Of a DNA stretch of 33,230 nt, positions 5,116 to 33,108 are shown one piece after another. The stretch's first letter is position 1. Each line of letters opens with the position of its first letter. A program made the translations under genes and the position numbers. The notes under the pieces are model-generated. The model saw only the letters and a program-made list of their open reading frames with translations, was not told the DNA's origin and made no database searches. Source of the DNA: Lactobacillus agrestimuris (GTDB lineage: Bacteria > Bacillota > Bacilli > Lactobacillales > Lactobacillaceae); assembly GCF_943193025.1 (NCBI RefSeq), contig NZ_CALPCQ010000022.1:1-33230 (forward strand), written 5' to 3'.

Positions 5116-5529
5116 TTAACCTAATTTGTTATATTCTTCATCACTTACCGGTTCAAGCCAAGTGTTCTTAGAGTCACCAATCATCACAGCGATGTGTGCA
5201 AACCATGAATCCTTAGTTGCACCATGCCAGTGCTTTGTATTTGGATTTACAATTATAACATCCCCAGGAACCATCTTTTGTGCGGGCTTGCCTTCTTCTT
5301 GGTACCAACCTTCACCGGCAACTGCAATCAAAATTTGAGGAACTGAATGTTTATGCCAATTATTACGGCAACCTGGTTCAAAACTAACATTATGAACAGC
5401 GGTTTTAGCTTCTTCGCTTAACGCTAATTCTTTAAGATAGCTTGTACCCTTAAAGAACTCAGCAAAAGCTTCGTTAGATTCACCAAAACCAAAGACACTA
5501 TTTTTTACTTCTTCTTCATTTTTAGCCAT
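5116..5529 (-). CDS. Small cupin-domain protein
   Basis: A 137-aa single-domain cupin. The first cupin motif is seen as WHKHS, with metal-ligand candidates H59 and H61, then Q65 in the usual Glu position and a conserved glycine after it (AGEGWY). The second motif is PGDVIIVNPNTKHWHG at about 88-103, with H100 or H102 as the last ligand. No signal peptide is seen. In lactobacilli such cupins often sit with carboxymuconolactone decarboxylase-like, SDR and AKR genes of unknown substrate; here an SDR pseudogene lies just upstream. A GAGGT ribosome binding site precedes the ATG. Its promoter carries copy 1 of the 43-bp motif shared with the CMD gene at 25 kb, linking the two genes. Enzymatic activity is unknown. 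Confidence 0.85.
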   Translation of the reverse strand: MAKNEEEVKNSVFGFGESNEAFAEFFKGTSYLKELALSEEAKTAVHNVSFEPGCRNNWHKHSVPQILIAVAGEGWYQEEGKPAQKMVPGDVIIVNPNTKHWHGATKDSWFAHIAVMIGDSKNTWLEPVSDEEYNKLG

Positions 5530-5563: not shown

Positions 5564-5630
5564 AGTATATGACTTTTTGATAAGAATGATAAATACTTAT
5601 AAATATTAGTCAGGTATTACTTTTTATTAT
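5564..5630 (-). promoter_or_regulatory. Cupin promoter with copy 1 of a 43-bp shared motif
   Basis: On the minus strand the -35 is TTTATC (5593-5588), the spacer 18 nt and the -10 TATACT (5569-5564). The -35 forms the downstream end of the motif 5588-5630. The motif contains two direct repeats of consensus WAWTACTTWT (plus-strand reading), 24 nt apart, at 5591-5600 and 5615-5624. The same arrangement recurs at 23505-23547 and 25212-25254, with 26 of 43 positions identical in all three. Confidence 0.6.
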
Positions 5631-5636
5631 GATAAT

Positions 5637-6484: not shown

Positions 6485-7171
6485 TTACAAGCTTACTAAT
6501 ATTAGATCTCTTAATTCCGATAAAGTACCTGATAAGCCAATGACTGCAACAAAATTATTGTTTTTGCATAAAGGAACCGATAAACACCTAAACTTCATTT
6601 CTTTTTCTTCATCATCCAAGGCGTAACCTTGATCACGGATTACTTTTAACGCACTTACCAACGACAATGGATCTGTTAAAGTGTTTACTGTTTTAGCCTC
6701 AAAACTATTTTTCGAAAATGTATCTTGTTGCTGATCTAATGGTGAAAATGCTAATGCGCATTTCCCCATTGCAGTCGTATTTAATGGCAAACTTTCACCT
6801 AACCGTTGATAGTCCTCGTAGTGCTTATCTGTTGGAATAACTTGACTAATAACAATCTTACCTTTAAACACAATTCCAACATATGCACTCAGTTGGTATT
6901 CATCGACAACAGGTTTTAATAATGGGACAACGGTCCAATTAATATCTTGAATACTTTCAGGCTGTGCAAACTGCTGCTTTAGTGAATATTTTCGTCCATT
7001 CTTTACCAAAAAATCTAATTCAGTTAGTGAATAAAGCAATCTAAATGCTGTGGCTGAATTTAAGTTAAACTCTTTCTGAACCTCATTTAATGTGACTACT
7101 TTTCTTTTTTGAACTAAATCTAAAATTTTCTTTGCTCTAACTAAAGTAGAAAGGAGATATTTATTTTCCAT
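6485..7171 (-). CDS. IclR-family transcriptional regulator
   Basis: With the ATG at 7171 this is a 228-aa protein. The N-terminal winged helix (about residues 5-60) has the helix-turn-helix-like segment TLNEVQKEFNLNSATAFRLL. The rest resembles the IclR effector domain, with PLNTTAMGKCALAF and the late segment SVPLCKNNNFVAVIGLSG typical of the family. A TTG start at 7222 would add 17 residues but has no good ribosome binding site, whereas the ATG at 7171 is preceded by AAGGGCGG at a reasonable distance. The broken SDR follows 67 nt downstream on the same strand and may be its target. Palindromes at its own promoter suggest autoregulation. The effector is unknown. Confidence 0.85.
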   Translation of the reverse strand: MENKYLLSTLVRAKKILDLVQKRKVVTLNEVQKEFNLNSATAFRLLYSLTELDFLVKNGRKYSLKQQFAQPESIQDINWTVVPLLKPVVDEYQLSAYVGIVFKGKIVISQVIPTDKHYEDYQRLGESLPLNTTAMGKCALAFSPLDQQQDTFSKNSFEAKTVNTLTDPLSLVSALKVIRDQGYALDDEEKEMKFRCLSVPLCKNNNFVAVIGLSGTLSELRDLILVSL

Positions 7172-7230
7172 GGAATTTTCCGCCCTTCGTAAACTATCAT
7201 AATCAGAATTTTCTTTTTTCAAAAAACTAC

Positions 7231-10281: not shown

Positions 10282-11148
10282 TTACATCTTACCGCCAAAG
10301 ACTGGAAATACTCCTGCTTGACCATAGTCAACTGGAGTAAACTTCTTAAGCTTATCCATGTCTTCATCGCTGATTTCAAAATCAATTTCAGCATTACTCT
10401 TCATATGGGTCGGATTTGCGGACTTAGGTAAAACAACGCAGTTAAGTTGCCAGTCATAGCGAATACATAATTGAGGAACACTGACACCATATTTCTCCGC
10501 CATCTTATTAATATCAGGATTGTTCAAAGCTGCACCGTGTGCAATTGGTGAGAATGCTTCAACCACAATATCATTTTCTTGACTGTAGTTAATTAGATCC
10601 ATTGGAGTTTCACCGATATGAACCAAAATTTGGTTAACTGCAGGCTTAGTAGAACTATTTTTAATGATGTTGTCTAAGTCTTCCTTTTCAAAACTTGAAA
10701 CACCAATTGTACGAAGCTTACCTTCTTTAACAGCATCTTCCATTGCACGCCAAGCTTCAAGATTACCTTCGAAATGACGATCATTTGATTGATTTACTTC
10801 ATTCCAAGGTTGTGGGTTGTGGATGATCATCATATCAAGATAATCTAAACCCATCTTGTTCAAAGTTTCATCAATTGAAGCCTTAGCATCTTTATAATTC
10901 TTTAATTCTGCAGCAACTTTTGAATTTATAAAGATTTCATCACGTGGAATTCCAGACTTCTTAACGCCTTCGCCTACCCCACGTTCATTTCCATAAGCCT
11001 GAGCAGTGTCAATGTGGCGATAGCCCATATCAATCGCAGCTTCAACAGCTTCCGGAGTTTGAGCATCAGGAATTTCCCAGACACCAAGAGCCATTTTAGG
11101 AATTTTTACACCATTATTCATAGTTAAAGTTTCATCAAAAATAGACAT
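10282..11148 (-). CDS. Aldo/keto reductase (2,5-diketo-gluconate reductase-like)
   Basis: A 288-aa cytosolic NAD(P)H-dependent carbonyl reductase. The AKR tetrad is visible: D47 and Y52 (HIDTAQAYGNE), K77 (INSKV) and H110 (MMIIHNPQPW). The C-terminal cofactor-binding stretch VVLPKSANPTHMKSN contains the family's KS..P..N pattern for the NADP phosphate. Length is typical. An AAAGGA ribosome binding site precedes the ATG. It lies 97 bp after the luciferase-like gene on the same strand and has its own promoter candidate. Substrate unknown; such genes in lactobacilli probably reduce aldehydes or short dicarbonyls. Confidence 0.92.
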   Translation of the reverse strand: MSIFDETLTMNNGVKIPKMALGVWEIPDAQTPEAVEAAIDMGYRHIDTAQAYGNERGVGEGVKKSGIPRDEIFINSKVAAELKNYKDAKASIDETLNKMGLDYLDMMIIHNPQPWNEVNQSNDRHFEGNLEAWRAMEDAVKEGKLRTIGVSSFEKEDLDNIIKNSSTKPAVNQILVHIGETPMDLINYSQENDIVVEAFSPIAHGAALNNPDINKMAEKYGVSVPQLCIRYDWQLNCVVLPKSANPTHMKSNAEIDFEISDEDMDKLKKFTPVDYGQAGVFPVFGGKM

Positions 11149-11170: not shown

Positions 11171-11199
11171 ACTATATTTTAAAGAAAAAAGGAGATCAA
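11171..11199 (-). promoter_or_regulatory. Promoter of the aldo/keto reductase gene
   Basis: Minus strand: -35 TTGATC (11199-11194), 17-nt spacer, -10 TATAGT (11176-11171), ending 22 nt before the ATG. A short palindrome GTCTAAGAC lies just upstream of the -35 (11201-11209) and could be an operator. Confidence 0.55.
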
Positions 11200-11245
11200 T
11201 GTCTAAGACCTTGTTTGTATTGATTTCTATAACTTAAATGTATAA

Positions 11246-12298
11246 CTATTTGTTCAAATCATTAATTACTTCACTAAACATCTTATATGACTTCAACCAT
11301 TTCTTCTCATCATAAATATAAGTATTAACCATTAATTCATCAAAATGCACCTTTAAACTTAGACGTTTAATTTGCTCTTTGACTTCTTCTTTTGTGCCAA
11401 TAACGGTTAAGGCGCCCATCTCTTTTACAATTGCCTTTTCCCTACCAATGATATCCTCTGATTCAAATGCTACTGGACCAAAATTAGGAACATATCTAGC
11501 CTTAATATAATCGTGCCAAATCTGATCTTCTGACTCAACTGGTTTCGGCAATAATTTTTCACCTTGCCCAGTTACAATATTTAGCATTTGTTGAGTCTGA
11601 GTTGTAGACAGATATTTTGCTTCTTCATGCGTATCTGCTAAATAAGCATTAATTCCAACGATAGTATAAGGTTTATCTAAGAATCTAGATGGTTTAAATT
11701 CGTCTTGATAAATCTTAACTGCTTTAATTAATTGTGCCGGCGCAAAGTGTGATGCAAAAGCATATGGCAAACCAAGTTTTGCTGCTAAATGCGCACTGTC
11801 AGTACTTGACCCTAAAATATAAATTGGAATATCAGCTCCAGCTGCCGGATACGCATGAACGTTTAATGTGTCATCAAAGTATCCTTGAAGTTCTTCAATA
11901 TCATTTTCAAAATTATTTTGTGCATGAAAATTTTCTTTTCGAATAGCTTGAGCAGTTTTTATATCAGTTCCTGGAGCACGACCTAATCCTAAATTTACAC
12001 GTCCTGGATACATTCTTTCCAGCATTCCATATTGCTCGGAAACAATATAAGGCGTGTGATTAGGAAGCATAACTCCACCTGACCCAACTTGAATAGTCTT
12101 TGTCTTATCTAATGTTTTTTCAATTAATAATTGTGTTGCTGAACTAGCAAAAATTTTTGCATTATGATGTTCAGCAATCCAGTACCTAGTGTAGCCCCAC
12201 TCTTCTGCTTTCTGGGCTAAATCAACCATTTCTTGATAAGCCTTTTGATAACCATCTTCAGTTTTTATAGGTACCAAATTTAAGATTGAGTATTTCAT
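11246..12298 (-). CDS. Luciferase-like FMN-dependent oxidoreductase (MsnO8 type)
   Basis: A 350-aa member of the bacterial luciferase-like monooxygenase family. Recognisable stretches are RYWIAEHHN near residue 40, QVGSGGVMLPNHTPY, EQYGMLERMYPGRVNLGLGRAPGT and YILGSSTDSAHLAAKLGLPYAFASHF. These form the TIM-barrel FMN site of the MsnO8/YceB branch. It would use reduced flavin and oxygen, or act as a reductase in an anaerobic setting; the substrate is unknown. A GAGGT ribosome binding site precedes the ATG. It follows patA on the same strand, but a strong promoter with an inverted repeat separates them, so it is probably regulated independently, perhaps by an electrophile sensor. Confidence 0.9.
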   Translation of the reverse strand: MKYSILNLVPIKTEDGYQKAYQEMVDLAQKAEEWGYTRYWIAEHHNAKIFASSATQLLIEKTLDKTKTIQVGSGGVMLPNHTPYIVSEQYGMLERMYPGRVNLGLGRAPGTDIKTAQAIRKENFHAQNNFENDIEELQGYFDDTLNVHAYPAAGADIPIYILGSSTDSAHLAAKLGLPYAFASHFAPAQLIKAVKIYQDEFKPSRFLDKPYTIVGINAYLADTHEEAKYLSTTQTQQMLNIVTGQGEKLLPKPVESEDQIWHDYIKARYVPNFGPVAFESEDIIGREKAIVKEMGALTVIGTKEEVKEQIKRLSLKVHFDELMVNTYIYDEKKWLKSYKMFSEVINDLNK

Positions 12299-12395: not shown

Positions 12396-13562
12396 TTAAT
12401 TCAAAAATTCTGCAAGTCGCTTCATTGCTTCATGCAAATTCTCATCACTTGAGGCATAAGACATTCTCACATATCCGTCTCCACCAGGACCAAAAGCACT
12501 ACCTGGAGTTAAACCAACTTTCTTATCAAATGCCAAATCCAGGGCAAATTTCATATCGTCTTTACCATATTTTTCTGGAATTTTGGCAAAAATATAGAAC
12601 GCTCCTTCAGGCTTTACAGTTTCCATGCCCATTTTATTGAGTTCTTCCAAAACAAAATCACGACGTTTTCTATAAACTTCTCTATACTTCTTCGGATCAT
12701 CCAAACCATTTTCTAATGCTTCAATTGCTGCTGCTTGAGAGGAATCATTAGTAGTGGTAACCAAAAGTCCATGTACTTTACTAATCTCAGCCATGATTTC
12801 GGCAGGACCAGCAATATAGCCAATCCGGTAACCGGTCATAGCATGCGATTTAGAAAGACCTGAAATATAAATTGCTCTTTCTGGAATCATTGAAGCAATT
12901 GAATAATGATCAACACCATATGTTAATTCACTATAAATTTCATCAGTAATGACATATAAATGATTATCTTTAATAACCTTCGCAAGTGCTTGTATTTCTT
13001 CTTTTGAATATTCAACCCCAGTTGGATTAGTTGGATAATTCAAAATCACAGCCTTTACTTCTGGGTTTTCATTAATAGTCTCTTGTAGTTTTTGAGGGGT
13101 AAGTTTAAAACCATCTTCGGAAGTATTCATTAATACGTATGAGGTATTGGCCAAAGTAGCCGCAGGCCAGTAAAGCGAGAAAACTGGTGTAGGAATAGCT
13201 ACCTTATCTTCTGGATTAGTAATCGCAAATAAAACTGCATTAATTGCCTCTGTTGCACCAACGGTAACAGCTACTTCTGTTTCAGGATCATAATCAACGC
13301 CAGTTTTTTGCTTTAAATAATTACTAATGGCTTTTCTTAACTCTAATTTTCCCTTTTGTGGAGCATAATGAGAATCATTATCTTCAATACTTTTAATTGC
13401 TGCTTTTTTGACATGCTCTGGAGTATTCATGTCTGGCTCACCTAAAGTTAACTTAATAATCCCAGGAATTGCTGAAACTTTATTATCAAAAATTCTAATT
13501 CCTGAAGCTTTCAAGTTAGCAATTTTTTTACTGTAGTCCAAGTCATTAGCTAATTGAGGCAT
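12396..13562 (-). CDS. patA: N-acetyl-LL-diaminopimelate aminotransferase (PatA-like)
   Basis: A 388-aa class I fold type I PLP aminotransferase. The PLP-binding lysine is K238 in SGLSKSHAMTGYRIGY. Other family residues are YPTNPTG at 176-182 and D207 in ITDEIYSEL. It would transfer an amino group from glutamate to N-acetyl-2-amino-6-oxopimelate. This substrate is inferred from position: it is the last gene of the lysine operon, and this pathway step has no other candidate in the window. By sequence alone it could be a general aromatic/aspartate aminotransferase. It starts 25 nt after asd, with an AAGGA site. No clear intrinsic terminator follows. Confidence 0.88.
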   Translation of the reverse strand: MPQLANDLDYSKKIANLKASGIRIFDNKVSAIPGIIKLTLGEPDMNTPEHVKKAAIKSIEDNDSHYAPQKGKLELRKAISNYLKQKTGVDYDPETEVAVTVGATEAINAVLFAITNPEDKVAIPTPVFSLYWPAATLANTSYVLMNTSEDGFKLTPQKLQETINENPEVKAVILNYPTNPTGVEYSKEEIQALAKVIKDNHLYVITDEIYSELTYGVDHYSIASMIPERAIYISGLSKSHAMTGYRIGYIAGPAEIMAEISKVHGLLVTTTNDSSQAAAIEALENGLDDPKKYREVYRKRRDFVLEELNKMGMETVKPEGAFYIFAKIPEKYGKDDMKFALDLAFDKKVGLTPGSAFGPGGDGYVRMSYASSDENLHEAMKRLAEFLN

Positions 13563-13586
13563 TGTGATCCTTCTTTCTTTTTATAA

Positions 13587-14645
13587 TTAGATTAAATCCA
13601 TCTTTACCAAGTATTCTGCATTTTCTACGGTATTCCATGCAGCACCCTTTAATAAATTATCTGCGACCACCCACATATTGAACGCACCTGGATTTTCATA
13701 GTCTGGACGAATTCTTCCGACAAAAGTTTCTCGTTTACCTGTTGCATTAATCGGTTGTGGGTAAATTTGATTTTTAATATCATCTTCAAGCACAACTCCA
13801 GGGAAACTAGCAACAGCATCCATAATATCTTGAGCAGTTGCACTTTCATCTTCAACGGTAAAGTAGACACTTTCACCGTGAGAAATTGGCACTGGAACAC
13901 GGACACAAGTTGCCGTCACCTTGATGTCCTTGGCATTCATATCATTTAGCATGATCTTCTTAGTTTCATGAATCATCTTCCATTCTTCATGAGAATAACC
14001 GCTATCTTCTAAAACATCGATTTGTGGTAAGAGATTAAATGCTAAAGGATAATGCTTCTTGTCGCCTTTAGTTGGCAAAATATGTGCATCTGCTTGCATA
14101 TCTTTTCCATCTAAATAATCCTGACTTTCTTTTTTAAGTTCATCAATTGCTGCTTGACCAGCACCTGAAGCAGCTTGATAAGTAGAAACAATAATTTGTT
14201 TCAAGCCAAACTTTCTTCTAATTGGTTCAAGTGCCATTACCATTTGAATAGTTGAACAATTAGGGTTAGCAATAATACCGTGGTGATTTTTTAATGCTTC
14301 TGGATTTACTTCTGGCACTACTAATGGCACATCTTCATCCATTCTAAAGGCGCTAGTATTGTCAACACAAACTGCACCGCGCTTAACGGCTTCTGGTAAA
14401 AATTTTTTTGACACCGCTCCACCAGCTGAAGATAATACTAAATCAACTCCGTCAAAAGATTCTGGCGTTGTTTCTTCAACAACTAAGTCTTGATCTCTAA
14501 ATTTTAAAGTTGTTCCGGCTGAGCGACTTGATGCAAGGAGCTTTACACTCTTAACTGGAATCGTTGACTTAGCCAATTGATCAATCATTCTTCTACCTAC
14601 CGCTCCGGTAGCACCTAAAATTGCTACATTATATTCTCTACTCAT
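13587..14645 (-). CDS. asd: Aspartate-semialdehyde dehydrogenase
   Basis: A 352-aa NADP-dependent enzyme converting aspartyl phosphate to aspartate semialdehyde, the second step of the lysine pathway. It has the N-terminal dinucleotide motif GATGAVG (11-17), the catalytic cysteine C130 in NPNCSTIQM and the AASGAGQAA segment. Length and motifs fit the Gram-positive type. AGGGGAT precedes the ATG. It lies 16 nt after dapB and 24 nt before patA in the L-box operon, so it is probably repressed by lysine. Asd is also the branch point toward threonine and methionine, so lysine control here could affect those branches unless another copy exists elsewhere. Confidence 0.95.
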
Positions 14646-14661
14646 TTTTTATATCCCCTAT

Positions 14662-15441
14662 TTACAAAATATTCTCAAGTCCAACAATCAACTCATTCAA
14701 TTGATCAACTTTTTCTAAAGCTACTTTTACTCCGCTCATAAAGCTGTCACGATCAAAAGAATCTTGCCGAATTGTTAATGCTTCACCAGGACCGCCAAAC
14801 AAAACTTGCTCATGAGCAATATAGCCTGGTAAACGAACCGAATGAATTTTAATTCCCTGGTAATCTCCTCCGCGAACACCCTTTAAGCTTTCTTCTTCAT
14901 CAGGGGCAGTCTCATGTGCTGGGCGATTTTCACTTATCAGCTTAGCAGTTGCCAAAGCTGTTCCAGAAGGTGCATCTTTTTTATCAGCATGATGCATTTC
15001 GATGATTTCAACATCTGGGAAATATTTTGCTGCTTCCTGAGCAAACTTCATAAGAAGAACGGCCGACATTCCAAAGTTAGGAGCAATTAGGCCTCCAATA
15101 TTTTTTTCTTTCGATAAACTAATTAACTCTGCTTCTTGTTCATCTGTTAAACCAGTTGTACCAACAATTGGTGAAATATGATGATTTATTGCAAACTTTA
15201 CATTTTCATAAACCGCGCTTGGAGTGGTGAAATCGATCCAAATATCAGCAACATTATCAGGAATTTCATTTAATGAAGTGAAAGTTTTTGCACTTTTTGA
15301 AAGATTAAAGTTTGCTAGATTATCAATCTCCCGTGGTGCTAAGCCTGCTACTATTTCAAAGCCATCCATTTTATTTACTAAATTGACAGCCTTTTGTCCC
15401 ATAGCACCTGTGAAACCAGCAATTAAAACTCTTTTAGTCAT
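14662..15441 (-). CDS. dapB: 4-hydroxy-tetrahydrodipicolinate reductase
   Basis: A 259-aa NAD(P)H-dependent reductase producing tetrahydrodipicolinate. It begins with the Rossmann motif GFTGAMG (9-15). The family signature [16 protein letters not shown] at 148-163 contains the catalytic His (150/151) and the substrate-binding Lys154 and SGT. Its start overlaps the dapA stop by 8 nt, with the GGAAGGA ribosome binding site inside dapA, so the two are translationally coupled. Length is typical and the gene appears intact. Confidence 0.95.
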
Positions 15442-16369
15442 TTTCTAATTCCTTCCCTAAATCTAAGGTCAATTCATGCGATAATGCATCATCTGCCAAG
15501 CCTAAGTTTTGAGCTAAAGCAACTTTTTCTTCATTATTTAAACTTACAAGCGGCAATCTGCATCCCCCAGTACTAAAACCTTGCGCATTAAGTACTGCTT
15601 TAACTGGTGATGGAGATGGATACATGAATAATGCTTGCATTCTAGGTGTTAACCAACGTTGAATCTTAGCGGCCTTTGGATAATTTCCAGCATAAAGTGA
15701 ATCAAACATTTGACGCATTTCTTTGGTATAAATATGACTAGCAACTGAAATCACGCCCGTTGCACCCAGGAGCCTTGCAGGCAAAGCTTGAGTATCTTCA
15801 CCGGTAAAGACCTCAAAATCATCATCTTTATTTTCAATAATATATTCAAGTTCTTCAAGAGATGCACATTGCTTAATCCCTTTAATATTCTTTAAATGAG
15901 ATAGTTGCACGATGGTTTCTTTTTCCATCTTAACGCCGGTTCTACCTGGAATGTTGTAAATTAAAATTGGCATCTTTGTCTGATCATTTACCGCTGAAAA
16001 ATGGGCAACCATACTGCGTTGATTAGGCTTGTTATATGGTGGAACAACAACTAAGGCGTAATCAATTCCTGAAATCTCAGCAACTTCATTAGTGAATTTA
16101 ATGGTTTCAGCTGTATTGTTACTACCGGTTCCCGCAATTACCACGGCTCTGCCATCAACGATTTGACCAAACTTTTGATAAAGTTCAATCTTCTCGTCAT
16201 GTGTTAAAGTTGGAGTTTCACCAGTTGTACCGCCAATCACGAATCCGTTACAACCTAAATCAATTAAATGATTAGTTAGTTTTTTCAAACTAGCAAAGTC
16301 AATCTTTTTATTTTCATCAAATGGCGTTACAATTGCCGTTACTAAATCTGCATCAGTTAAATTCACCAT
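15434..16369 (-). CDS. dapA: 4-hydroxy-tetrahydrodipicolinate synthase
   Basis: A 311-aa TIM-barrel class I aldolase condensing pyruvate with aspartate semialdehyde, the committed step to lysine. It shows [15 protein letters not shown] (46-60), the catalytic Tyr138 in YNIPGRTG and the Schiff-base Lys166 in GIKQCAS. The start lies 1 nt after the deacetylase stop codon, with GGAG inside the end of that gene. It overlaps dapB by 8 nt. Gram-positive DapA is often insensitive to lysine feedback, so the riboswitch may be the main control here (inference). Confidence 0.95.
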
Positions 16370-16370
16370 T

Positions 16371-17522
16371 TTAGTTCTCCATTCTATTAATCAAGAAACC
16401 TTTAATTGCTTCAATACCTTTTTGAATACTTTTTTCATCTGGATTAAGTGTCGCCGAGTGAAGTTGCGAATCATCCCCTACCCCAAGCCAAAACATGGTT
16501 CCAGGAAACTTAGCAAGTAAAAAGCCAAAATCTTCACCGGTCATCTTTGGAGCTGTTTCAATATATTCAACTTCAGGATTATTCTTCATATAAGAAATAA
16601 AGTTCTTTGTTAATTCGGGATTATTTTCAACTGGCCAATATCCACCTTGATTCAAATCCAAATTAACTTCCATATTAAAACTTTTTGCTATTCCCTCACA
16701 GACATCCCTTAGTCGTTGATCAATCTCTAAAATCATCTTTTGAGTTAAACCACGAATTGTTCCTTCAATTCTTGCACGACCCGCAATTACATTTCTGATC
16801 GTGCCCGCTTCAACCTTTCCTAAAGTAATTACTCCACTTTGAATAGGATCAATGCTTCTAGAGATAATGGTTTGAATTTGCATTATTAATGAAGACATTG
16901 CCACAACAGTATCATTTGCATTTTGCGGAAAAGCTGCATGACCACCTTTACCAATCAAATCAATATTTACTTCAGTAGTTCCTGCAAATAAGGTGCCCAT
17001 TCTACAGCCGATACTTCCAGCAGGTAATTCTGGATTATCATGAAGACCATAGAATTCATCAGGTTTAAATTCTCCTTGAAAAATTTCTTTTTCATATGCC
17101 AGCATACCGCCACTTTCACTTTCTTCGGCCGGTTGGAAAAAGAAAAGCAAATTATCTTTTGGTTGATTTTCACTGAAATAACTAAGTAGACCTAATGCGA
17201 CAGTCATATGAATATCATGTCCACAAGCATGCATTACACCAGGATGTTTCGAAGCAAAAGCTAAACCTGTTTTTTCTTCAACAGGAAGAGCATCAATATC
17301 AGTTCTGTAGCCAATTGTTCTTTGCGAGTTACTTCCTTTAACTAATACCAAGATTGCAGTTGGTAATTCTTTGGGAACTTTGATCTTTAAAAATTCTTGA
17401 TTTAGTCCTTGAATAACCTGCATTAAATATCCGTAAGTTTCTTTTTCTTGCAGAGCTAATTCAGGTATTTCATGTAAATGTCTTCTTATCTTTATTAATT
17501 GTTCTTCATTTAAAACTGACAT
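16371..17522 (-). CDS. dapL: N-acetyldiaminopimelate deacetylase (M20 family)
   Basis: A 383-aa M20D metallo-amidohydrolase removing acetate from N-acetyl-LL-diaminopimelate. Features are [12 protein letters not shown] (72-83), the metal-binding HACGHDIHM (98-106), [10 protein letters not shown] (131-140), the dimerisation segment [10 protein letters not shown] and late TGEDFG. Related enzymes act on hippurate or N-acetyl amino acids; the lysine role is inferred from its place between dapH and dapA. The symbol follows Bacillus usage (ykuR/dapL) and must not be confused with the LL-DAP aminotransferase DapL. One base separates it from each neighbour, and its ribosome binding site is weak, so it probably depends on translational coupling from dapH. 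Confidence 0.9.
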
Positions 17523-17523
17523 T

Positions 17524-18234
17524 TTATATCTTTCTCAAATCTTCTTCTAAACCGGTCTTACTTGCTGTTTGATCATCAACTCTTTTAATCACACGAGCGG
17601 GTACACCAGCAACCATTGTATGTGGCTCAACATCTTTAGTTACAACCGCACCTGCCGCAACAACTGCGCCTTCACCTACATGAACACCTTCAATTACTAC
17701 AGCATTTGCTCCCATAACTACGTTATCATCGATTCTAACTGGTTCAGCTGAGGCCGGTTCAATCACACCTGCAAGAACGCTGCCAGCACCAATGTGACAA
17801 TGCTTACCAACAATGGCACGACCACCAAGTACAACTCCCATATCGATCATGGTATCATCACCAATTTCAGCACCAATGTTAATAATGGCGCCCATCATAA
17901 TAACTGCATTCTTTCCTATTAATACTTGATCACGAATGATAGCACCCGGTTCAATTCGAGCATCAAATTTCTTTAGATCAAGTAAAGGTACTGCAGAATT
18001 TCTAGCATTATTTTCAATTCTTGATGCTTCGATCTTATCTTCATTTGCCTTTAAAAATGGTTCAACATCTTTCCAGTCACCAAAAATCACGCCTGAATGA
18101 CTCTCGGTGAAGTTTTCGATTTCAGAAGGAAAATCAATTTGATTCAAATCTCCCTTAATAAATACTTTTACTGGTGTCTTCTTTGGTGCATTTCCAATGT
18201 ATTCAATAATACTTTTTGCGTCTAATTGTGCCAT
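17524..18234 (-). CDS. dapH: 2,3,4,5-tetrahydropyridine-2,6-dicarboxylate N-acetyltransferase
   Basis: A 236-aa acetyl-CoA-dependent transferase that acetylates tetrahydrodipicolinate. An N-terminal DapH domain (about 1-85) is followed by left-handed beta-helix hexapeptide repeats from about 90 to 210, visible as repeated I/V-G-x-x motifs ([40 protein letters not shown]). It ends with the typical [12 protein letters not shown] segment. The length of about 236 aa is that of the acetyl form (DapH), not the longer succinyl DapD, so the operon uses the acetylase branch. GAGG precedes the ATG, 18 nt after lysA. Confidence 0.95.
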
Positions 18235-18251
18235 TTTAAAACCTCTATCTA

Positions 18252-19562
18252 TTAATCTTCATATGATTGATCTAAATGAACTAAATCTTCTAAGCTTTCG
18301 CGCTTAATTACTAACTTTGCCTTACCATTTTCTGCAAATACCACAGCTGGTCGCGGATTACGATTATAATTTGATGCCATTGAATAGCCATATGCACCTG
18401 TATCAAGCATCGCTAGAATTGATCCGGCCTGAGTTACTGGTAATGCTTGATCTTGAGCTAAAATATCGCCGCTTTCGCAATATTTTCCAGCAATCCTGAC
18501 ATGTTCAGTTGCTTTTGCATGAGGATCGGAAGCTAAAACTGTTTCATATTCTGCATCATAAAGGGCGGGACGAATGTTATCACCCATACCACCATCAATT
18601 GCAACATATGGACGATAGCCTGGAATAATTTTTCGACTTCCTGTTGTATATAAGTTATATCCGGCAGGTCCAACGATCGAACGCCCCGGCTCAATATCAA
18701 TTTCAGGAATTGGAAAATCATTTTTATTTGCTTCTTCTTTGATGGTTTGAATAATTGCTCTTACAAATTCCTCTGGTCTTAACGGATTATCATTTGCAGT
18801 ATATTTTATTCCGAATCCCCCGCCAACATTAAGAATACTTGCAGTGTAATCATATTGCTCGCGCCAATTTTCAACAATTTCCATTAGCTTCTTAGCCGCC
18901 ATTTGAAATCCATTTAACTCGAAAATTTGTGACCCAATATGAGCGTGAACACCAACCATTTCCATTCGCGGATTTGCAAGAACCTTTTCTAAAGCTAAAT
19001 CTGCTTGACCTGATTCAAGGTCGAAACCAAATTTACTATCAACTTGACCAGTTTGATCGTATTCATGAGTATGAGCTGAAATACCTGGTGCTATTCGAAG
19101 CATGACTTTCATCTGTTCATCTTTTTCTTGCAAAATTTGATCAAGCAATTCAATTTCATAAAAATTATCTAAGATAATTTTTCCAATATGGTGATCAACA
19201 GCCATTTCAAGCTCTGCTTTTGATTTATTGTTGCCGTGAAAACTAATTCGACTAGTTGGAAAATCAGCCTTCAATGCCGTATAAAGTTCTCCGGCCGAAA
19301 CTACGTCTGTGTATGCACCTTCTTCATTTGCAACTTGATACATGGCAATTGATGAAAAGGCCTTACTTGCATAACTAACTGCGTATGCCACATTTTCTTC
19401 TTCAAAGACCTTTCTAAAAGCTCTAATTTGACTGCGAATTCGTTCAACATCATAAACCACAAGTGGCGTTCCAAATTGATGGGCTAGTTCGACGGCATCT
19501 ACACCACCGATTGTTAAATGACCTTGTTCGTTAATTTGTTCTTTTGTAATTTGAGAATTCAT
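18252..19562 (-). CDS. lysA: Diaminopimelate decarboxylase
   Basis: A 436-aa fold type III PLP enzyme converting meso-diaminopimelate to lysine. The PLP lysine is K67 in [16 protein letters not shown], the glycine-rich [13 protein letters not shown] and the active-site CESGD follow in order. It is the first gene after the lysine riboswitch, with CGGAG before the ATG. Having the final enzyme first in the operon, and its divergence from lysC-dapF, places all lysine genes together. Intact. Confidence 0.96.
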
Positions 19563-19597
19563 AATTTTAGCTCCGTTCTGTTAGACGAAACGCTAAT

Positions 19598-19635
19598 AAA
19601 AAAATCCACTGTCTGCGCATAACAAACAATGGATT
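19598..19635 (-). terminator. Lysine riboswitch terminator
   Basis: On the minus strand AATCCATTGT (19635-19626) pairs with ACAGTGGATT (19612-19603), with one mismatch, and is followed by a run of T (19604-19598). It sits between the aptamer and lysA and is expected to form when lysine is bound. Confidence 0.85.
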
Positions 19636-19649
19636 AACTCTTCTTAATC

Positions 19650-19822
19650 TGATAGTCGATAGCGCTCCGCAAAATCTTTGCGACAGTTCGTAAGTTCTTA
19701 ACTTACGACCCAGCGTATGCATTTGGCACTGCATCGCTTCGGCAACTTCCCCTTTCACAATTATTCAAAGTCTTACCAGACTCCTAATTGCTACTGATGT
19801 CAGTTGCGCCTCTATTGAATTT
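19650..19822 (-). promoter_or_regulatory. Lysine riboswitch (L box)
   Basis: On the minus strand the conserved L-box blocks appear in order: AGAGGCGC (19813-19806), GGGGAAGTTGCCGAAG (19752-19737), GCTGGGTC (19714-19707), ACTGTCG, and GCGGAGCGCTATC (19670-19658). This order and spacing match the lysine aptamer, and a terminator follows. It controls lysA and the rest of the minus-strand operon, switching it off when lysine is abundant. A 63-codon open frame through this region is an accident of the RNA sequence. Confidence 0.93.
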
Positions 19823-19828
19823 ACCTGT

Positions 19829-19857
19829 AGTCTACGCTTTGATTAAATCCAAGTCAA
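19829..19857 (-). promoter_or_regulatory. Promoter of the lysA-patA operon
   Basis: Minus strand: -35 TTGACT (19857-19852), 17-nt spacer, -10 TAGACT (19834-19829). Transcription would start near 19822, just before the L-box aptamer. Confidence 0.8.
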
Positions 19858-19994
19858 TACTTTTATTATGTTTTTTTAATTTTTGTAAAATTATAGTTAT
19901 TAATATATCTGAATTTAACTTGCAAGATTAAAAATTAATGTTAAAATTCAACTTAAAATCATTTCGAGTTCAAAAACATTTTAAGGAGTTTTAT

Positions 19995-21350
19995 ATGAAA
20001 ATTGTAAAGTTTGGAGGCAGCTCCCTTGCCAGTGGTAACAACGTTGAGCAAGCATTAAAAATTATCTTAAGCGATAAAGACAGACAAGTTATTGTAGTAT
20101 CTGCGCCTGGAAAAAGAGATGACCAAGATATTAAAGTTACTGATCTTTTAATCAAATATGCAAAGCAAGTACTAGCTAATAAAAACTCAAATGAAATAGT
20201 TCAAGAAATTTATTCTCGCTATCAAGAAATTGCTAATTATTTTGGTTTAGAAAATGAAAAAGTAGAAATTATCAAAGAAATTTTACTTAATTTACCTAAG
20301 AAAAGTTATCCAAATTCTGACTATTTAATGGCCGCTTTTAAGGCTCATGGTGAAAGATTAAATGCTAGATTAATTGCTCTAATTTTGAATCATCAAGGTA
20401 TCAAAAGTAGATTCTTGGACCCAGTTGAAGCAGGCCTAATCGTCACTGGTGAGCCTAATGATGCGTTAGTAAATCCAGAAACTTATATAAATCTTGATCA
20501 AGTATCAATTGATCCAGATGAACGAGTTATTTTTCCGGGATTCTTCGGTGTAACGCCTTCTGGAAATATTGCGACCTTTGCTCGTGGTGGTTCAGATATT
20601 ACTGGGGCAATTTTGGCTAGAGGATTACATGCCGATTTATATGAAAACTTTACTGACGTGAATGGTATTTTTGCTGCCAATCCGAATATCGTTGATCATC
20701 CCCAATCAATTAAAAAAATGACTTATCGAGAAATGCGAGAATTATCTTACGCTGGTTTCTCAGTATTCCATGACGAAGCCTTAATTCCAGCGATTCAGGG
20801 GCAAATTCCAATTAATGTTAAAAATACCCATGAACCCGAAAATCCCGGTACAATGATCGTTCCTGAAAAGAACTTTGATCCAGATAATATTATTACCGGT
20901 GTTACAAGTCAGAAAAATTTTTCGGCCTTATATTTACACAAATATCTCTTAAATAAAGAGGCCGGTTTTACTTTAAGAATTCTTCAAATCTTGGATAATC
21001 ACAATGTTCCTTATGAACACATGCCATCTGGAATAGATGACATTACGATTATCTTTAACAACGAATTTTTAAATGACCAATTAATTGATCAAATTTGTAA
21101 TGAAATTCAAGCAATGATCAATCCTGACAAACTCGAATGGATCAATAATTATGCCATTATTATGATTGTTGGCGAAGGGATGAAACAAACTGCTGGTGTC
21201 AGCAGACAAATTTTAGATTCTTTAGGACAAGATCAGATAACTCCAAGAATGATCAATCAAGGTGCATCACAAATTTCGATCATGATTGGTACTCAAAAAG
21301 AAAAAGCCGATAAAGCTGTAAAAATAATTTACGATCAATTTTTTAATTAA
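19995..21350 (+). CDS. lysC: Aspartate kinase
   Basis: A 451-aa aspartokinase catalysing the first step of the aspartate pathway. The N-terminal kinase domain begins MKIVKFGGSSLASG, with the KFGGSS nucleotide-binding motif, then KAHGERLNARL, FARGGSDITGA and NFTDVNGIFAANP. The C-terminal part (from about 300) carries two ACT-like regulatory domains. The start at 19995 is chosen because AAGGAG lies 6 nt upstream and the motif begins there; an upstream ATG at 19938 adds 19 unlikely residues. Length indicates a monofunctional class. No lysine riboswitch precedes it: the 137-nt gap is too short and shows no L-box on this strand, so feedback through the ACT domains is likely. Confidence 0.95.
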   Translation: MKIVKFGGSSLASGNNVEQALKIILSDKDRQVIVVSAPGKRDDQDIKVTDLLIKYAKQVLANKNSNEIVQEIYSRYQEIANYFGLENEKVEIIKEILLNLPKKSYPNSDYLMAAFKAHGERLNARLIALILNHQGIKSRFLDPVEAGLIVTGEPNDALVNPETYINLDQVSIDPDERVIFPGFFGVTPSGNIATFARGGSDITGAILARGLHADLYENFTDVNGIFAANPNIVDHPQSIKKMTYREMRELSYAGFSVFHDEALIPAIQGQIPINVKNTHEPENPGTMIVPEKNFDPDNIITGVTSQKNFSALYLHKYLLNKEAGFTLRILQILDNHNVPYEHMPSGIDDITIIFNNEFLNDQLIDQICNEIQAMINPDKLEWINNYAIIMIVGEGMKQTAGVSRQILDSLGQDQITPRMINQGASQISIMIGTQKEKADKAVKIIYDQFFN

Positions 21351-21367
21351 ATGAAAGGGCTAACTAT

Positions 21368-22372
21368 ATGGTTAATTTACTAAAGGTTCATGGCTCACAA
21401 AACCATTTTTTCATTCTAGACCAAACCGAACTTTTTAATCCTCTAACTGATTCTGAATTGCGTGCTTTTACCCAAAAGATTACTGATCCAAGCACCGGTA
21501 TTTTAAATGGTGCCGATGGTGTTTTAGCAATCAATGAACCAACTAGAAAAAATGCTCTTGCACAAATGCGTGTGATCAATGCAGATGGTAGTGAGGCATC
21601 AATGTGTGGTAACGGACTTCGAACTGTTGCTAGATATTTGAGCGAAAAATTCAATAAAGATAACTTTTTGGTCGATACTATGAACGCTAACTTGCAGGTA
21701 AGAAAAGAAAAGGATTTTGCAGAAAATGTTCCTGCATTTGCAGTCGAAATTTCACCAGTTAGCTTTAATAAAGAAGCAGTTCCATTTGAAAATTTAGGTC
21801 ATGATCGCCTAATTGATACACTTGTACCAGAAATTTATCCAGGATTACGCTTCACTTCGATGGCTGTCCCGAATCCGCAACTTGTGAGTTTTGTAAATGA
21901 AGAGCAAATTACTGGCCCTATTCTTGGAATTATTGGTGAAAAATTAAATTCAGAAAATCCCTATTTCACCGATGGAGTTAATGTCAATTTCGCTCAAATT
22001 ATCGACAAAAATAAGATCTTTGTTAGAACTTTCGAAAGAGGGGTTGGCTTTACCAATGCTTGTGGTACAGGGATGTCCGCTACTTCCCTAGCCTTACTTC
22101 TTACTCATCCAGATGACGTTGATATGGATAAAACAATTGATGTGTACAATCCAGGCGGTATGGTTAGAACTAAGTTACATTACGAAAATAATAAATATTG
22201 GATTGAATTAATTGGTAATGCGACATTTACTGATAAAATTGAAATTTCTGAAGATGATTTGCGACATGCAAAGTTTTCAAATATTACTTGCCAAGAAACT
22301 GGTGAACAATCAGCATATAAAAAGTTTGTAGATGATTTGCCAAAGTTTAATAAAATTAAAACTTTAGAATAA
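21368..22372 (+). CDS. dapF: Diaminopimelate epimerase
   Basis: A 334-aa cofactor-independent racemase converting LL- to meso-diaminopimelate. Both catalytic cysteines are present: C80 in MCGNGLRTVARY and C232 in NACGTGMSATS. ERGVGFT supplies the conserved Glu-Arg. The usual GNPHxV motif reads PNPQLVSF, with Gln171 in place of the conserved His. The protein is longer than the usual 270-280 aa; the extra part includes a C-terminal tail from about 300. It lies 17 nt after lysC with an AAAGGG site, forming a two-gene operon. It completes the pathway for lysine and, where used, meso-DAP. Confidence 0.92.
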   Translation: MVNLLKVHGSQNHFFILDQTELFNPLTDSELRAFTQKITDPSTGILNGADGVLAINEPTRKNALAQMRVINADGSEASMCGNGLRTVARYLSEKFNKDNFLVDTMNANLQVRKEKDFAENVPAFAVEISPVSFNKEAVPFENLGHDRLIDTLVPEIYPGLRFTSMAVPNPQLVSFVNEEQITGPILGIIGEKLNSENPYFTDGVNVNFAQIIDKNKIFVRTFERGVGFTNACGTGMSATSLALLLTHPDDVDMDKTIDVYNPGGMVRTKLHYENNKYWIELIGNATFTDKIEISEDDLRHAKFSNITCQETGEQSAYKKFVDDLPKFNKIKTLE

Positions 22373-22469: not shown

Positions 22470-23303
22470 TTACTTCCATAAAAAGTTAACCAAAGCACGA
22501 TCAACTTCAGGATTGCTGTGCAAGCGACTATGTTGAGCATTTCTACCAGTAAACTTCTTTTCTTGATAACTCTTAGCATTTGGTAAAACTATATACTTAA
22601 GAGTTTTAGATGAAGTAATACTTACTCTTTGATCTCCACCATTTTCATAATCACCATAAAGATTTAGTACTCTAGCATGAGGATAATATTTCTTCAAAGG
22701 AAGAAGTTCCTTATATGAGCTTGTTTCTTTATTTGGCTTACCTGTTTTGGCATTTACTTTAAGTCCTGCAGGTTCATCATAACCAATAATTCCATCAAAG
22801 TGGCCAGCGATATCTACTTGATTATTTAGTGTAGGTAAATTTTTATTCTTAGCATTATTAAGTAAGTAGAACATGATTGCCATGTTACCCATTGAGTGAC
22901 CAACCATGTTCATCTTCTTGAAGTTGTATGATTTTTGAAGTCTTTTTACTACGTTTAATGCATACTTTCCATCTTGGTGATAATCCGCATTAATATTGTC
23001 TTCAAAGTTAACTTCAACGATTGGATTTTTAGAATTATGGTTAATTTTTCCTTCTAAAGTAACACTACCATTCTTGGAAACATTAGCCTTGATAATTTTA
23101 TTTGTAGCCCCCATGCTTTTTGCGGCATTTGCCATATGCTCTTCCGCATGACTGCTACTACCATAACCATGGAAAAAGATAGTTGGAGTTGAAATAGTTG
23201 TTCTACTTTTAGCAGTAGCTTCTTCACTGGAATTATTTGCTGTACAACCAGCCGCCAAAAGTGCTACTGCCGCCGCTGTTATAATTTTATAAATCTTTTT
23301 CAT
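22470..23303 (-). CDS. DUF915-type alpha/beta hydrolase lipoprotein
   Basis: A 277-aa secreted hydrolase with a lipoprotein signal: positive MKKIYK, a hydrophobic stretch and lipobox LAAGC with the lipidated Cys at 20. The hydrolase fold shows the oxyanion segment FFHGYGSS (43-50) and nucleophile elbow GHSMG with S137. Candidate acid D224 (or D218) and histidine H258 or H262 follow. This matches the DUF915 group of surface hydrolases common in lactobacilli; the substrate (ester or lipid) is unknown. GGGAAGGG lies before the ATG. It converges with dapF. Nearest promoter candidate is 23379-23407; the shared 43-bp motif copy 2 lies farther upstream. Confidence 0.88.
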   Translation of the reverse strand: MKKIYKIITAAAVALLAAGCTANNSSEEATAKSRTTISTPTIFFHGYGSSSHAEEHMANAAKSMGATNKIIKANVSKNGSVTLEGKINHNSKNPIVEVNFEDNINADYHQDGKYALNVVKRLQKSYNFKKMNMVGHSMGNMAIMFYLLNNAKNKNLPTLNNQVDIAGHFDGIIGYDEPAGLKVNAKTGKPNKETSSYKELLPLKKYYPHARVLNLYGDYENGGDQRVSITSSKTLKYIVLPNAKSYQEKKFTGRNAQHSRLHSNPEVDRALVNFLWK

Positions 23304-23378
23304 CTTTAACCCTTCCCTTGTCTCAAATATTTCTTAAAAAGCTATCAGGTCTATCAAATGGAATATCCTTCAGTCAAT

Positions 23379-23407
23379 ACCATAATATGAAACTATTCTT
23401 TGATCAA
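23379..23407 (-). promoter_or_regulatory. Candidate promoter of the lipoprotein hydrolase gene
   Basis: Minus strand: -35 TTGATC (23407-23402), 17-nt spacer, -10 TATGGT (23384-23379), about 75 nt before the start codon. Confidence 0.4.
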
Positions 23408-23480: not shown

Positions 23481-23547
23481 ATTTTATGTCTTAAAACAAT
23501 TAATGTTAAATACTTATTTAATAGGTCAATCTATTACTTATTGTTAT
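23481..23547 (-). promoter_or_regulatory. Promoter with copy 2 of the 43-bp motif, no intact gene behind it
   Basis: Minus strand: -35 TTTAAC (23510-23505), 18-nt spacer, -10 TAAAAT (23486-23481), with motif copy 2 at 23505-23547. Transcription would run into 23470-23304, where a GAGGGG site precedes only a 16-codon frame (ATG at 23461) and all frames are soon closed. The intergenic stretch 23304-23675 otherwise holds the hydrolase promoter candidate and the -10 of the divergent LtrA gene. The RNA may be a long leader of the hydrolase gene, a small RNA, or the remains of a lost gene. Confidence 0.5.
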
Positions 23548-23675
23548 ATATTTTGGCAAGAATTTTATAATTATTGCCGATTTATTGTTTAGTAGAAATT
23601 ATTTTAATTAAACACATTTTCAATAACTACTGTATAATTTATGTTAAAAACTAAGAAGGAGTAAAAATATTCATA

Positions 23676-24821: not shown

Positions 24822-25139
24822 TTACTTCCAAACTTCCTTAGCAATATTGAATGCGCTCCATGCATTTGGCCAACCAACGTAAAATGCTAATTGAGTAATA
24901 ATTTCTGAAATTTCTTCTTTAGTAATACCGTTCTTTTTAGCAATTTGCATGTGAATTGGAAGTTGTTCAAATGCACCTTTGGTAATAAGTGCAGTCACAG
25001 TAATCATACTTCTGTACTTTAATGGAAGTTCCTTTTCTCTTGACCAAACTTCTCCAAATAAAACATCGTCATTAATTTCTGCAAATTTTGGAGCAAATTC
25101 TCCTAATTGATCGCGTCCTGCAGTTTGCTTTTCAGCCAT
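24822..25139 (-). CDS. Carboxymuconolactone decarboxylase-family protein
   Basis: A 105-aa all-helical CMD-fold protein. The core reads LPLKYRSMITVTALITKG, then EQLPIHMQIAKKNGITKEE and LAFYVGWPNAWSAF, matching the PcaC-like branch. The CxxC pair of AhpD-type peroxidase partners is absent; the position has EQLPIH. A true aromatic-degradation role is unlikely because no such pathway is visible; these small proteins in lactobacilli have no firmly known function. An AGAAGG site precedes the ATG. Its promoter contains copy 3 of the 43-bp motif shared with the cupin gene at 5.1 kb, so the two are probably co-regulated. Confidence 0.9.
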   Translation of the reverse strand: MAEKQTAGRDQLGEFAPKFAEINDDVLFGEVWSREKELPLKYRSMITVTALITKGAFEQLPIHMQIAKKNGITKEEISEIITQLAFYVGWPNAWSAFNIAKEVWK

Positions 25140-25188: not shown

Positions 25189-25254
25189 ATTATAGGTCAA
25201 TTAATTTTTATGATAAATACTTATTTTATTTAGCTAGATATTACTTTTAGTTAT
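25189..25254 (-). promoter_or_regulatory. CMD promoter with copy 3 of the 43-bp motif
   Basis: Minus strand: -35 TTTATC (25217-25212), 17-nt spacer, -10 TATAAT (25194-25189). The motif covers 25212-25254, with direct repeats at 25215-25224 and 25239-25248. Architecture is the same as at the cupin gene. Confidence 0.62.
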
Positions 25255-25290
25255 CAATAGATCTCAAAACAGAACAAATTTATGATCAAA

Positions 25291-31312: not shown

Positions 31313-31335
31313 GATTATTGAAAGAAGTGTCAATT

Positions 31336-33108
31336 ATGCATTATAGTAATGGTAACTACGAAGCTTTTGTCCATGCAGAAAAGCCAAAAGACGTTGAAAA
31401 GAAATCAGCCTATATTGTCGGATCAGGTCTTGCATCACTTGCGACTGCAACTTTCTTAATCCGTGATGCCCAAATGGAAGGTGAAAAGATTCATATCTTT
31501 GAAGAATTAGCTCTTCCTGGTGGTAGTATGGATGGAATTTATAATCCAGAAAAGCAAGCCTATATCATTCGTGGTGGTCGTGAAATGGAACCGCACTTTG
31601 AAACTTTATGGGACTTGTTTAGATCAATTCCATCACTTGAGCATGAAGGTGAATCAGTCCTTGATGAATTCTACCGTTTGAACCGTAAGGATCCAAGTTT
31701 TTCAAAGACTCGTGTAATTGTAAATCGTGGTAAAGAATTACCTACTGATGGAAAACTCCTCTTAACACCTAAAGCTGTCAAAGAAATTGTTGATTTAGTT
31801 TTAACCCCAGAAAAAGATTTACAAGATAAGAAGATCAACGAAGTCTTCACTAGAGAATTCTTTGAATCAAACTTCTGGTTATACTGGTCAACTATGTTTG
31901 CCTTCGAACCTTGGGCAAGTGCTATGGAAATGCGTCGCTACTTGATGAGATTTGTCCAACACGTAGCAACTCTTAAGGATTTATCATCTCTTCGCTTTAC
32001 TAAATATAATCAATATGAATCATTAATCTTACCAATGGTTCATTTCTTGAAAGATCATGGTGTAAACTTCCACTATGATACAGTCGTTGACAATATCATT
32101 GTTAACAAGTCAGATGGTGAAAAAGTTGCAAAAGAAATCCAATTAACTGAAAAAGGCAAAAAAGATACTATTAAATTAACTGAAGATGATCTAGTCTTTG
32201 TCACTAATGGGTCTATTACTGAAAGTACCACCTATGGTGACAATACTCATCCAGCATCTGAAAAACATGAATTAGGCGCAACTTGGACACTATGGAAGAA
32301 CCTAGCTGCTCAAGATAGTGACTTCGGTCATCCTGAAAAATTCTGTGAAAATATTCCTAAAGCCAACTGGGTAATGTCCGCAACTATTACCTTCAAGAAT
32401 AATGACATAGTTCCATTTATTGAAGCAGTAAATAAGAAGGATCCACATAGTGGTTCAATCGTAACTAGTGGTCCTACAACTATCAAAGATTCAAATTGGA
32501 TGCTAGGCTATTCAATTAGTCGTCAGCCTCACTTCAAGGCTCAAAAACCTAATGAATTAATTGTCTGGTTATACGGCCTCTATTCAGACAGAAAGGGTAA
32601 TTTCATCAAGAAGACAATGCCTGAATGTACTGGTATTGAGCTTTGTGAAGAGTGGCTCTACCACATGGGCGTTCCAGACAATATGATCAATGAAATGGCA
32701 ACTGCTGCAACCACTATTCCACAACACATGCCATACATTACTTCTTACTTCATGCCAAGAGCCTTAGGTGACCGTCCAAAGGTTGTGCCAGATCACTCTA
32801 AGAATTTGGCCTTCATTGGTAACTTTGCAGAAACTCCTCGTGACACTGTCTTCACTACAGAATACTCTGTCAGAACTGCTATGGAAGCTGTCTACACCTT
32901 GTTTGACATTGACCGCGGAGTACCAGAAGTGTTCGCTTCTGCCTTTGATGTAAGACTTCTTATGAATGCAATGTATTACTTAAACGATCAAAAGAAGTTA
33001 ACTGAACTTGATTTACCATTAACTGAAAAGTTAGCCATTAAAGCAATGCTTAAGAAGGTAAAAGGAACCTACATAGAAGAATTACTTAAAGAATATAAAT
33101 TAATGTAA
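31336..33108 (+). CDS. ohyA: Oleate hydratase (myosin-cross-reactive antigen family)
   Basis: A 590-aa FAD-dependent fatty acid double-bond hydratase, converting oleic or linoleic acid to 10-hydroxy acids. It begins [17 protein letters not shown], as in lactobacillus members, with the FAD-binding [10 protein letters not shown] at 29-38, the family motif RGGREME at 79-85 and [13 protein letters not shown]. The late FAD-contact region [19 protein letters not shown] is also present. The ATG at 31336 is chosen over a TTG at 31318 because family members begin there and are about 590 aa long; AGAAGTG is a modest ribosome binding site. The enzyme is thought to detoxify host unsaturated fatty acids at the membrane. 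No terminator is seen before the IS edge. Confidence 0.96.

Follow-up and report, generated by a model that had tools for sequence, protein, structure and literature searches.

The window analysed here, that is the whole stretch of 33,230 nt of Lactobacillus agrestimuris DNA, carries on its minus strand the genes for a cupin, for a DUF915 alpha/beta hydrolase and for a carboxymuconolactone decarboxylase-family (CMD) protein, and upstream of each of them a copy of the same promoter element is located. The corresponding features are given below. Promoter boxes and dyads were read from the sequence, while bits and E-values of the sites refer to the weight model R1, for which all three sites were training sites.

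5116..5529, minus strand: cupin protein, 137 aa (PF07883, E 1.4e-9)
5564..5569, minus strand: -10 box of site 1, TATACT, spacer 18
5588..5593, minus strand: -35 box of site 1, TTTATC, overlapped by the second half-site
5585..5632, minus strand: site 1 (48-bp model span), before the cupin gene; 34.2 bits, E 5.3e-8, exact pattern match
5616..5630, minus strand: dyad of site 1, ATAA-N7-TAAT, the proposed recognition site of a LysR-type transcriptional regulator (LTTR), T-N11-A; based also on arm co-variation at cupin promoters
22470..23303, minus strand: DUF915 alpha/beta hydrolase, 277 aa (PF06028, E 6e-79)
23481..23486, minus strand: -10 box of site 2, TAAAAT, spacer 18
23505-23510, minus strand: -35 box of site 2, TTTAAC
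23502..23549, minus strand: site 2 (48-bp model span), before the DUF915 gene; 36.9 bits, E 7.9e-9, exact match
23533..23547, minus strand: dyad of site 2, ATAA-N7-TAAT
24822..25139, minus strand: CMD protein, 105 aa (PF02627, E 7.2e-23)
25189..25194, minus strand: -10 box of site 3, TATAAT, spacer 17
25212-25217, minus strand: -35 box of site 3, TTTATC
25209..25256, minus strand: site 3 (48-bp model span), before the CMD gene; 35.2 bits, E 2.6e-8, exact match
25240..25254, minus strand: dyad of site 3, ATAA-N7-TAAT

Elsewhere in the window, type I restriction genes (HsdM and HsdR) are found at the contig end (127-4882, minus strand), beyond which an HsdS gene may lie, and the region 12396-22372 contains diaminopimelate/lysine-type genes according to Pfam, namely an aminotransferase (12396-13562), a PLP-dependent decarboxylase (18252-19562) and a DAP epimerase (21368-22372). 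On the plus strand, an MCRA-family protein (PF06100, E 4.9e-218), a member of the fatty-acid hydratase family, is encoded at 31318-33108. In front of this oleate-hydratase-like gene no position scores 8 or more, and there is no plus-strand model match.

A recount showed that the three segments described in the initial annotation align without gaps over 43 bp with 26 of the 43 positions common to all, exactly as had been observed. The proposed direct repeats at a distance of 24 nt were also found, in the form of AAGTA cores with this spacing in every copy, and each copy adjoins the -35 box of a minus-strand promoter (TTTATC, TTTAAC and TTTATC), which is followed by the -10 hexamer TATACT, TAAAAT or TATAAT at a spacer of 18, 18 and 17 nt in sites 1, 2 and 3, respectively. 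Read on the minus strand, each copy is composed of ATAA-N7-TAAT, a loose middle and ATAAGTATTTAWC, the final six letters of which are the -35 box. The pattern AAGTAATA-N16-AAGTATTTA has three exact matches in the window (shuffled mean 0.00), and the three exact matches in the whole 1.88-Mb assembly are all inside the window, while the reversed pattern has none. When the pattern was extended by AWC and up to three mismatches were allowed, ten extra matches were obtained in the assembly, all of them with three mismatches; since the reversed pattern gives 24, we consider these ten as background.

Two of the copies had been assigned to a cupin and a CMD gene, and the start codons of these genes are indeed located 58 and 72 nt past the respective copies; the statement that the two proteins have no firm function still stands. 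The gene context of the third copy had to be corrected. This copy lies 201 nt before the gene of the DUF915 alpha/beta hydrolase, possibly with a decayed gene in between, for which there is the following candidate:

23373..23405, minus strand: possible remnant of a cyclophilin-like lipoprotein gene, between site 2 and the DUF915 gene (tblastn, 72.7% over 11 residues, E 0.001 per query)

As several hundred queries were compared and this is the best match among them, it counts as weak. In the genomes G021, G029 and G059, a cyclophilin-like lipoprotein gene is located upstream of a DUF915-like gene (judged by eye; PF18050 for the G029 protein), and this gene order would fit the possibility that the remnant is what is left of a decayed first gene before DUF915.

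In addition to the three strong sites, the window harbours a weaker fourth site at 11198-11245, which was absent from the initial annotation:

10282..11148, minus strand: aldo-keto reductase (AKR), 288 aa, 49 nt behind site 4 (PF00248, E 1.4e-45)
11176-11181, minus strand: -10 box of site 4, TAAAAT, spacer 19
11201-11206, minus strand: -35 box of site 4, TTAGAC
11198..11245, minus strand: site 4, weak; matrix score 16.6; 12.4 bits, E 0.0074 within the window, dyad part only
11229-11243, minus strand: dyad of site 4, ATAC-N7-TTAT

Over the window, the 11-site matrix gives scores of 47-49 at the three copies, which are among its training sites, 16.6 at site 4 and values below 0 elsewhere, and the score of site 4 was reached in none of 300 simulated windows. 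The combination of TTAGAC with a 19-nt spacer is also present in sites of other genomes, and sites are followed by AKR genes in G030, G055, G010 and G021 as well as in Companilactobacillus operons. Judged by these features, site 4 is probably a weak member of the set. Just upstream of it, a gene for a luciferase-like monooxygenase is located (11246-12298). A further weak site (15.5 bits) is present on contig C23 of the same genome before a DUF3737 gene and an aminotransferase gene, a pair which is preceded by strong sites elsewhere. The assembly may contain additional weak sites, since the R1 search with its strict filter passed over site 4.

Searching 61 genomes of the genus with the bare pattern and two mismatches revealed 31 places, versus 73 for its reverse (summed from the table). 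Most of these loose matches are due to chance, since they are rarer than those of the reversed pattern, and because there was no excess over the reverse at two mismatches, a weight model was adopted instead. This model, R1, is sequence-only and was built from 11 sites, namely the three copies in the window and eight intergenic sites from seven other genomes, the latter chosen by eye among loose pattern matches. In 75 genus genomes R1 yielded 104 matches at (rough) E-values up to 0.05, distributed over 53 genomes, and the gene calls were inspected at 47 of them (44 outside the window and the three in it). A random scatter had been named in the initial annotation as contrary to its proposal, and the good-scoring matches are not distributed in this way: 40 of the 44 inspected sites outside the window overlap no called ORF (60 aa), and at 42 of the 44 an ORF starts within 500 nt downstream. 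The genes downstream of the genus sites include those for cupin, CMD, DUF3737 plus aminotransferase, aldo-keto reductases, FMN reductase, a RibD-like reductase, a cyclophilin-like lipoprotein and hydrolases; at some sites it is instead a MerR gene that faces an LTTR gene.

Conservation in orthologous promoters was analysed for the cupin gene, orthologues of which are present in 61 of the 75 genus genomes. Promoters of 30 of these 61 genomes were inspected, and in 23 of the 30 the site is kept at the same place, 50-72 nt upstream of the gene, albeit in some cases in very degenerate form (several score only 6-11, the minimum being 6.0); the other seven inspected promoters are without a site. At 29 CMD loci of other genomes, no strong site was detected directly before CMD (best score 0.8). 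This is to be expected of a gene in an operon or a fusion. CMD is found in 35 genus genomes, and when the 14 weakest CMD rows are omitted, which drops one genome, 34 genomes carry both genes. In 32 of the 34 the two are fused or adjacent: both matches fall into one open frame of at least 241 aa in 12 genomes and lie side by side in 21, G032 having both forms. The exceptions are G069, in which an LTTR gene is located between cupin and CMD, and the genome studied here, in which they are 19.3 kb apart and each has its own site. As judged from this arrangement, cupin and CMD are likely to be partners. Further, in its middle part (CTAGCTAA) the CMD site is similar to the cupin sites of G029 and G047 (CTAGCTAG), and our guess from this likeness is that the promoter may have been copied.

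The comparison of the sites revealed a nearly constant promoter layout. The dyad has the spacing T-N11-A, and the outer AT of either arm never varies among the 11 training sites or among 21 distinct cupin-promoter sites (20 from the cupin promoters inspected and one from G060). The dyad centre precedes the inferred transcription start by approximately 66 nt, and the -35 box is overlapped by the second half-site. Among the distinct sites of the fetched loci, 67 have a score of at least 22, and in all 67 a -10 box (two mismatches or fewer) follows at 16-19 nt, in 48 of them at exactly 18 nt. As 36 of the 67 sites also have a stretch further downstream that would qualify as a -10 box by the mismatch count, it is the fixed spacing and not the presence of a -10 box that counts as evidence. 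At the fourth letters of the arms (positions 6 and 14), the 21 cupin-promoter sites have either A-T (13 sites) or C-G (eight sites) and never a mixture. This co-variation is supportive but is no proof, because it follows the phylogeny. The right arm is TAAT at all three strong sites of the window and TTAT, GTAT or GCAT in most relatives.

The sites are linked to a particular kind of regulator gene. In the genus, 16 of the 104 matches are located at most 150 bp from the start of an LTTR match (72 LTTR matches of 188 bits or more were used for this count), while 0.02 would be expected, and all 16 are in divergent orientation. Without the training sites, the number is 14 of 93, and only two of the 11 training sites are within 150 bp of an LTTR gene. 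The 16 matches are not independent cases, since they originate from about five kinds of locus. A cleaner test than this within-genus count is provided by other genera. In 151 genomes of the family, R1 at E up to 1e-4 detected 12 sites in 11 genomes belonging to six other genera, and at 11 of the 12 sites a divergent LTTR gene lies across the site. The sole other-genus site without an adjoining LTTR gene (L278, 1500-1547) precedes an ORF of 247 aa. Downstream, an acetyltransferase-like gene was recognised at 10 of the 12 sites (by eye; one acetyltransferase, in L158, was checked with Pfam), mostly followed by SDR, AKR or DUF3737-like genes (also by eye). In L271 (4-1451), which is from another genus, the site, an acetyltransferase-like gene and a DUF3737-like gene were seen by eye in a row, and this links the acetyltransferase operons to the DUF3737 targets. 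When the exact 37-base pattern was compared with the genomes of 84,980 species, it was found on three contigs, all from Companilactobacillus. In two of them (L157 and L158) the site is located between an LTTR gene and a redox operon, and in the third (L159) between a nitroreductase gene and a redox operon, with no LTTR gene among the ORFs inspected.

In a phylogenetic tree, 18 LTTRs form one clade with a support of 100/98, apart from the 12 LTTRs of the genome studied here and from LpLttR of Lactiplantibacillus plantarum. Ten of the 18 are encoded near genus matches, six beside other-genus sites, one beside a Companilactobacillus site, and one stems from the slot in G030 described below; the tree covers seven of the 11 outgroup-side LTTRs and few of the LTTRs of the genus. 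The underlying alignment (A3) leans toward site-adjacent LTTRs, because it was built from LTTRs found near matches. Among solved structures, the LTTR profile matches CatM (E 2.7e-37) and BenM (E 1.2e-35) best. A strong site but no LTTR match of the 188-bit level is found in G020 and in the incomplete G024. Altogether, the original view of an activator site of LysR-like type, which adjoins the -35 box and defines a regulon, is supported, as orthologous genes of other species have the site in their promoters and it also adjoins divergent LTTR genes there. The response-regulator-like type, which had been considered alongside, gains no support from this comparison.

According to the initial annotation, the regulator is not identifiable here. 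This is only half right: its kind was identified as LTTR, while no member is present in the assembly. The best match to the site-adjacent LTTRs in the assembly has 143 bits, the whole-length matches counted in other genomes having 188 to 484 bits, and the 12 own LTTRs are all placed outside the clade. Further, no site was found before any of the 12 own LTTR genes (the best matrix score is 10.4, at L051), and DUF956, which was tried as a marker of one LTTR locus, has no match in the assembly. In G030, G011, G006, G070 and G016, the slot DegV-LTTR-integrase-YoaK is kept, and in G013 it contains a split LTTR gene (gene names by eye). In the genome studied here, this slot coincides with the gap between the ends of the contigs C15 and C9. 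At the end of C15, a transposase-like fragment is located beside a DegV-like gene (by eye), and C9 begins 1.5 kb before a YoaK-like gene. On C9 (L265, 883-1292), short stretches similar to a RibD-like reductase and to an aldo-keto reductase were noticed by eye; since both kinds are targets of sites in relatives, redox genes may be decaying at this contig end.

The position of the slot at a contig break implies that the regulator gene is either unassembled or lost. In view of the near-consensus sequence of all three sites we favour the former, and most likely the gene lies in the unassembled stretch between C15 and C9. On the other hand, the transposase-like fragment at the end of C15 could mean that it is lost. 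In G013 (C3:33390-34252), G058 (C1:1540194-1541067) and G025 (C2:1472148-1473045), the LTTR match is distributed over two frames, and these are either pseudogenes or the result of sequencing errors.

According to the best reading of these data, in which we have good confidence, the three copies would be operators of one LTTR that activates small redox-type genes. One dimer of an LTTR tetramer would bind to the upstream dyad ATAA-N7-T(T/A)AT, the centre of which precedes the inferred start by approximately 66 nt, and the other dimer would contact the half-site AAGTATTTAWC, which is located 24 nt downstream and runs into the -35 box. Upon binding of a small inducer, the LTTR would then assist RNA polymerase at a promoter whose spacer is almost constant. 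LTTR binding, activation, tetramer geometry and inducer are what we infer rather than show; judged from the targets, the inducer is perhaps a reactive carbonyl or a quinone-like compound. In this genome, the proposed regulon would comprise cupin, CMD and DUF915 with strong sites, and AKR as well as the DUF3737 and aminotransferase genes on C23 with weak ones.

Other explanations have to be weighed against this reading. The operator could be right and the regulator could nevertheless be one of the 12 own LTTRs, most likely L045, which is encoded next to an enolase gene on contig C20 and is the nearest own LTTR in the tree. This would agree with the lack of a clade member in the assembly and with the TAAT right arm at all three strong sites, as if the specificity had shifted. 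However, the own LTTR loci have no site before the gene, as mentioned above, and LTTR matches of about 110-145 bits are found in many genomes, and we consider such a replacement quite unlikely. It is unlikely, too, that the sites are relics, the LTTR having been lost, perhaps through insertion-element activity, and the promoters being LTTR-independent now. The fragments seen by eye at the ends of C15 (transposase-like) and C9 (reductase-like), the possibly decayed gene behind site 2 and the LTTR matches in two frames in G013, G058 and G025 could be explained in this way. Still, the split genes may be sequencing errors, and both halves are near the consensus at all three sites (34-37 bits, a score favoured by their being training sites).

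The two AAGTA cores in the same orientation in each copy could also be taken as repeats recognised, at their distance of 24 nt, by a response regulator or another direct-repeat binder. Tandem response-regulator sites rarely have such a spacing, the upstream half forms a dyad with arms changing together, and LTTR genes recur beside the sites, all of which renders a binder of this type very improbable. A MerR or IclR regulator is likewise regarded as very improbable, although a MerR gene is located downstream at nine of the 44 inspected sites outside the window (PF13411 for one of them) and an IclR gene (6485-7222) lies 0.9 kb from site 1. In all nine MerR loci, which represent one syntenic setting, an LTTR gene faces the MerR gene across the site, and MerR sites are usually located between the -35 and the -10 box, with long spacers.

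Going beyond the window with the LTTR reading, we are inclined to think, with considerable reservation, that the sites belong to an undescribed redox regulon of lactobacilli under one LTTR clade, in which a rigid promoter module (dyad, half-site, -35 box, 18-nt spacer and -10 box) outlives the operons. Both cupin and CMD would have kept or regained the module upon their separation, and the arms would have changed in step between lineages (from ATAA/TTAT to ATAC/GTAT), as if operator and regulator co-evolve. The sites are of importance because they would tie uncharacterised conserved proteins of lactobacilli (cupin, CMD, DUF915, DUF3737 and the cyclophilin-like lipoprotein) to one regulator and hence to a single type of signal. 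As a guess, they could offer a handle on the sensing of reactive carbonyl- or quinone-like compounds by gut and food lactobacilli.

Among the described lactobacillus LTTRs, LpLttR (lp_0057) of Lactiplantibacillus plantarum was compared. Its LTTR box is given as (A/T)TAC-N7-(G/A)(T/A)a(T/A) (PMC9019972) and is, like the dyad described here, an AT-rich 15-base T-N11-A box of a lactobacillus LTTR; it resembles the ATAC-N7-GTAT form at the cupin promoters of G011 and G016. Neither Table 1 nor the available part of Table 2 of that paper (PMC9019972) names cupin, CMD or DUF3737 among the LpLttR targets. Four published LpLttR primers were tested and all four match one locus of G321, the LTTR of which groups in the tree with the own LTTR L047 outside the clade. 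Thus, LpLttR was rejected as the group of the regulator. For lactic acid bacteria, LysR regulons have been reconstructed by comparative genomics, and PMC3616900 names three cysteine/methionine regulons and MleR among them. The regulon proposed here resembles these in that it is an LTTR regulon predicted by comparative genomics in the same order, while cupin, oxidoreductase and aldo are absent from the main text of that paper (PMC3616900). A regulon of this gene content was not found in searches of the open-access full-text literature, whereas LTTR promoters of this layout are already well known.

Classical LTTR promoters of the BenM, CatM and CbnR type have a recognition site near -65 and an activation site at -35. 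Like these, the sites described here have a T-N11-A dyad centred near -66 (relative to the inferred start) and a second half-site that overlaps the -35 box; a further shared feature, seen in relatives and at no site in the window, is the regulator gene that is divergent from its targets. They differ from the classical promoters in that the targets are scattered in this genome with no regulator gene beside them, and in the nature of these targets, which in lactobacilli are cupin, CMD, DUF915, DUF3737, AKR, SDR and FMN reductase genes.
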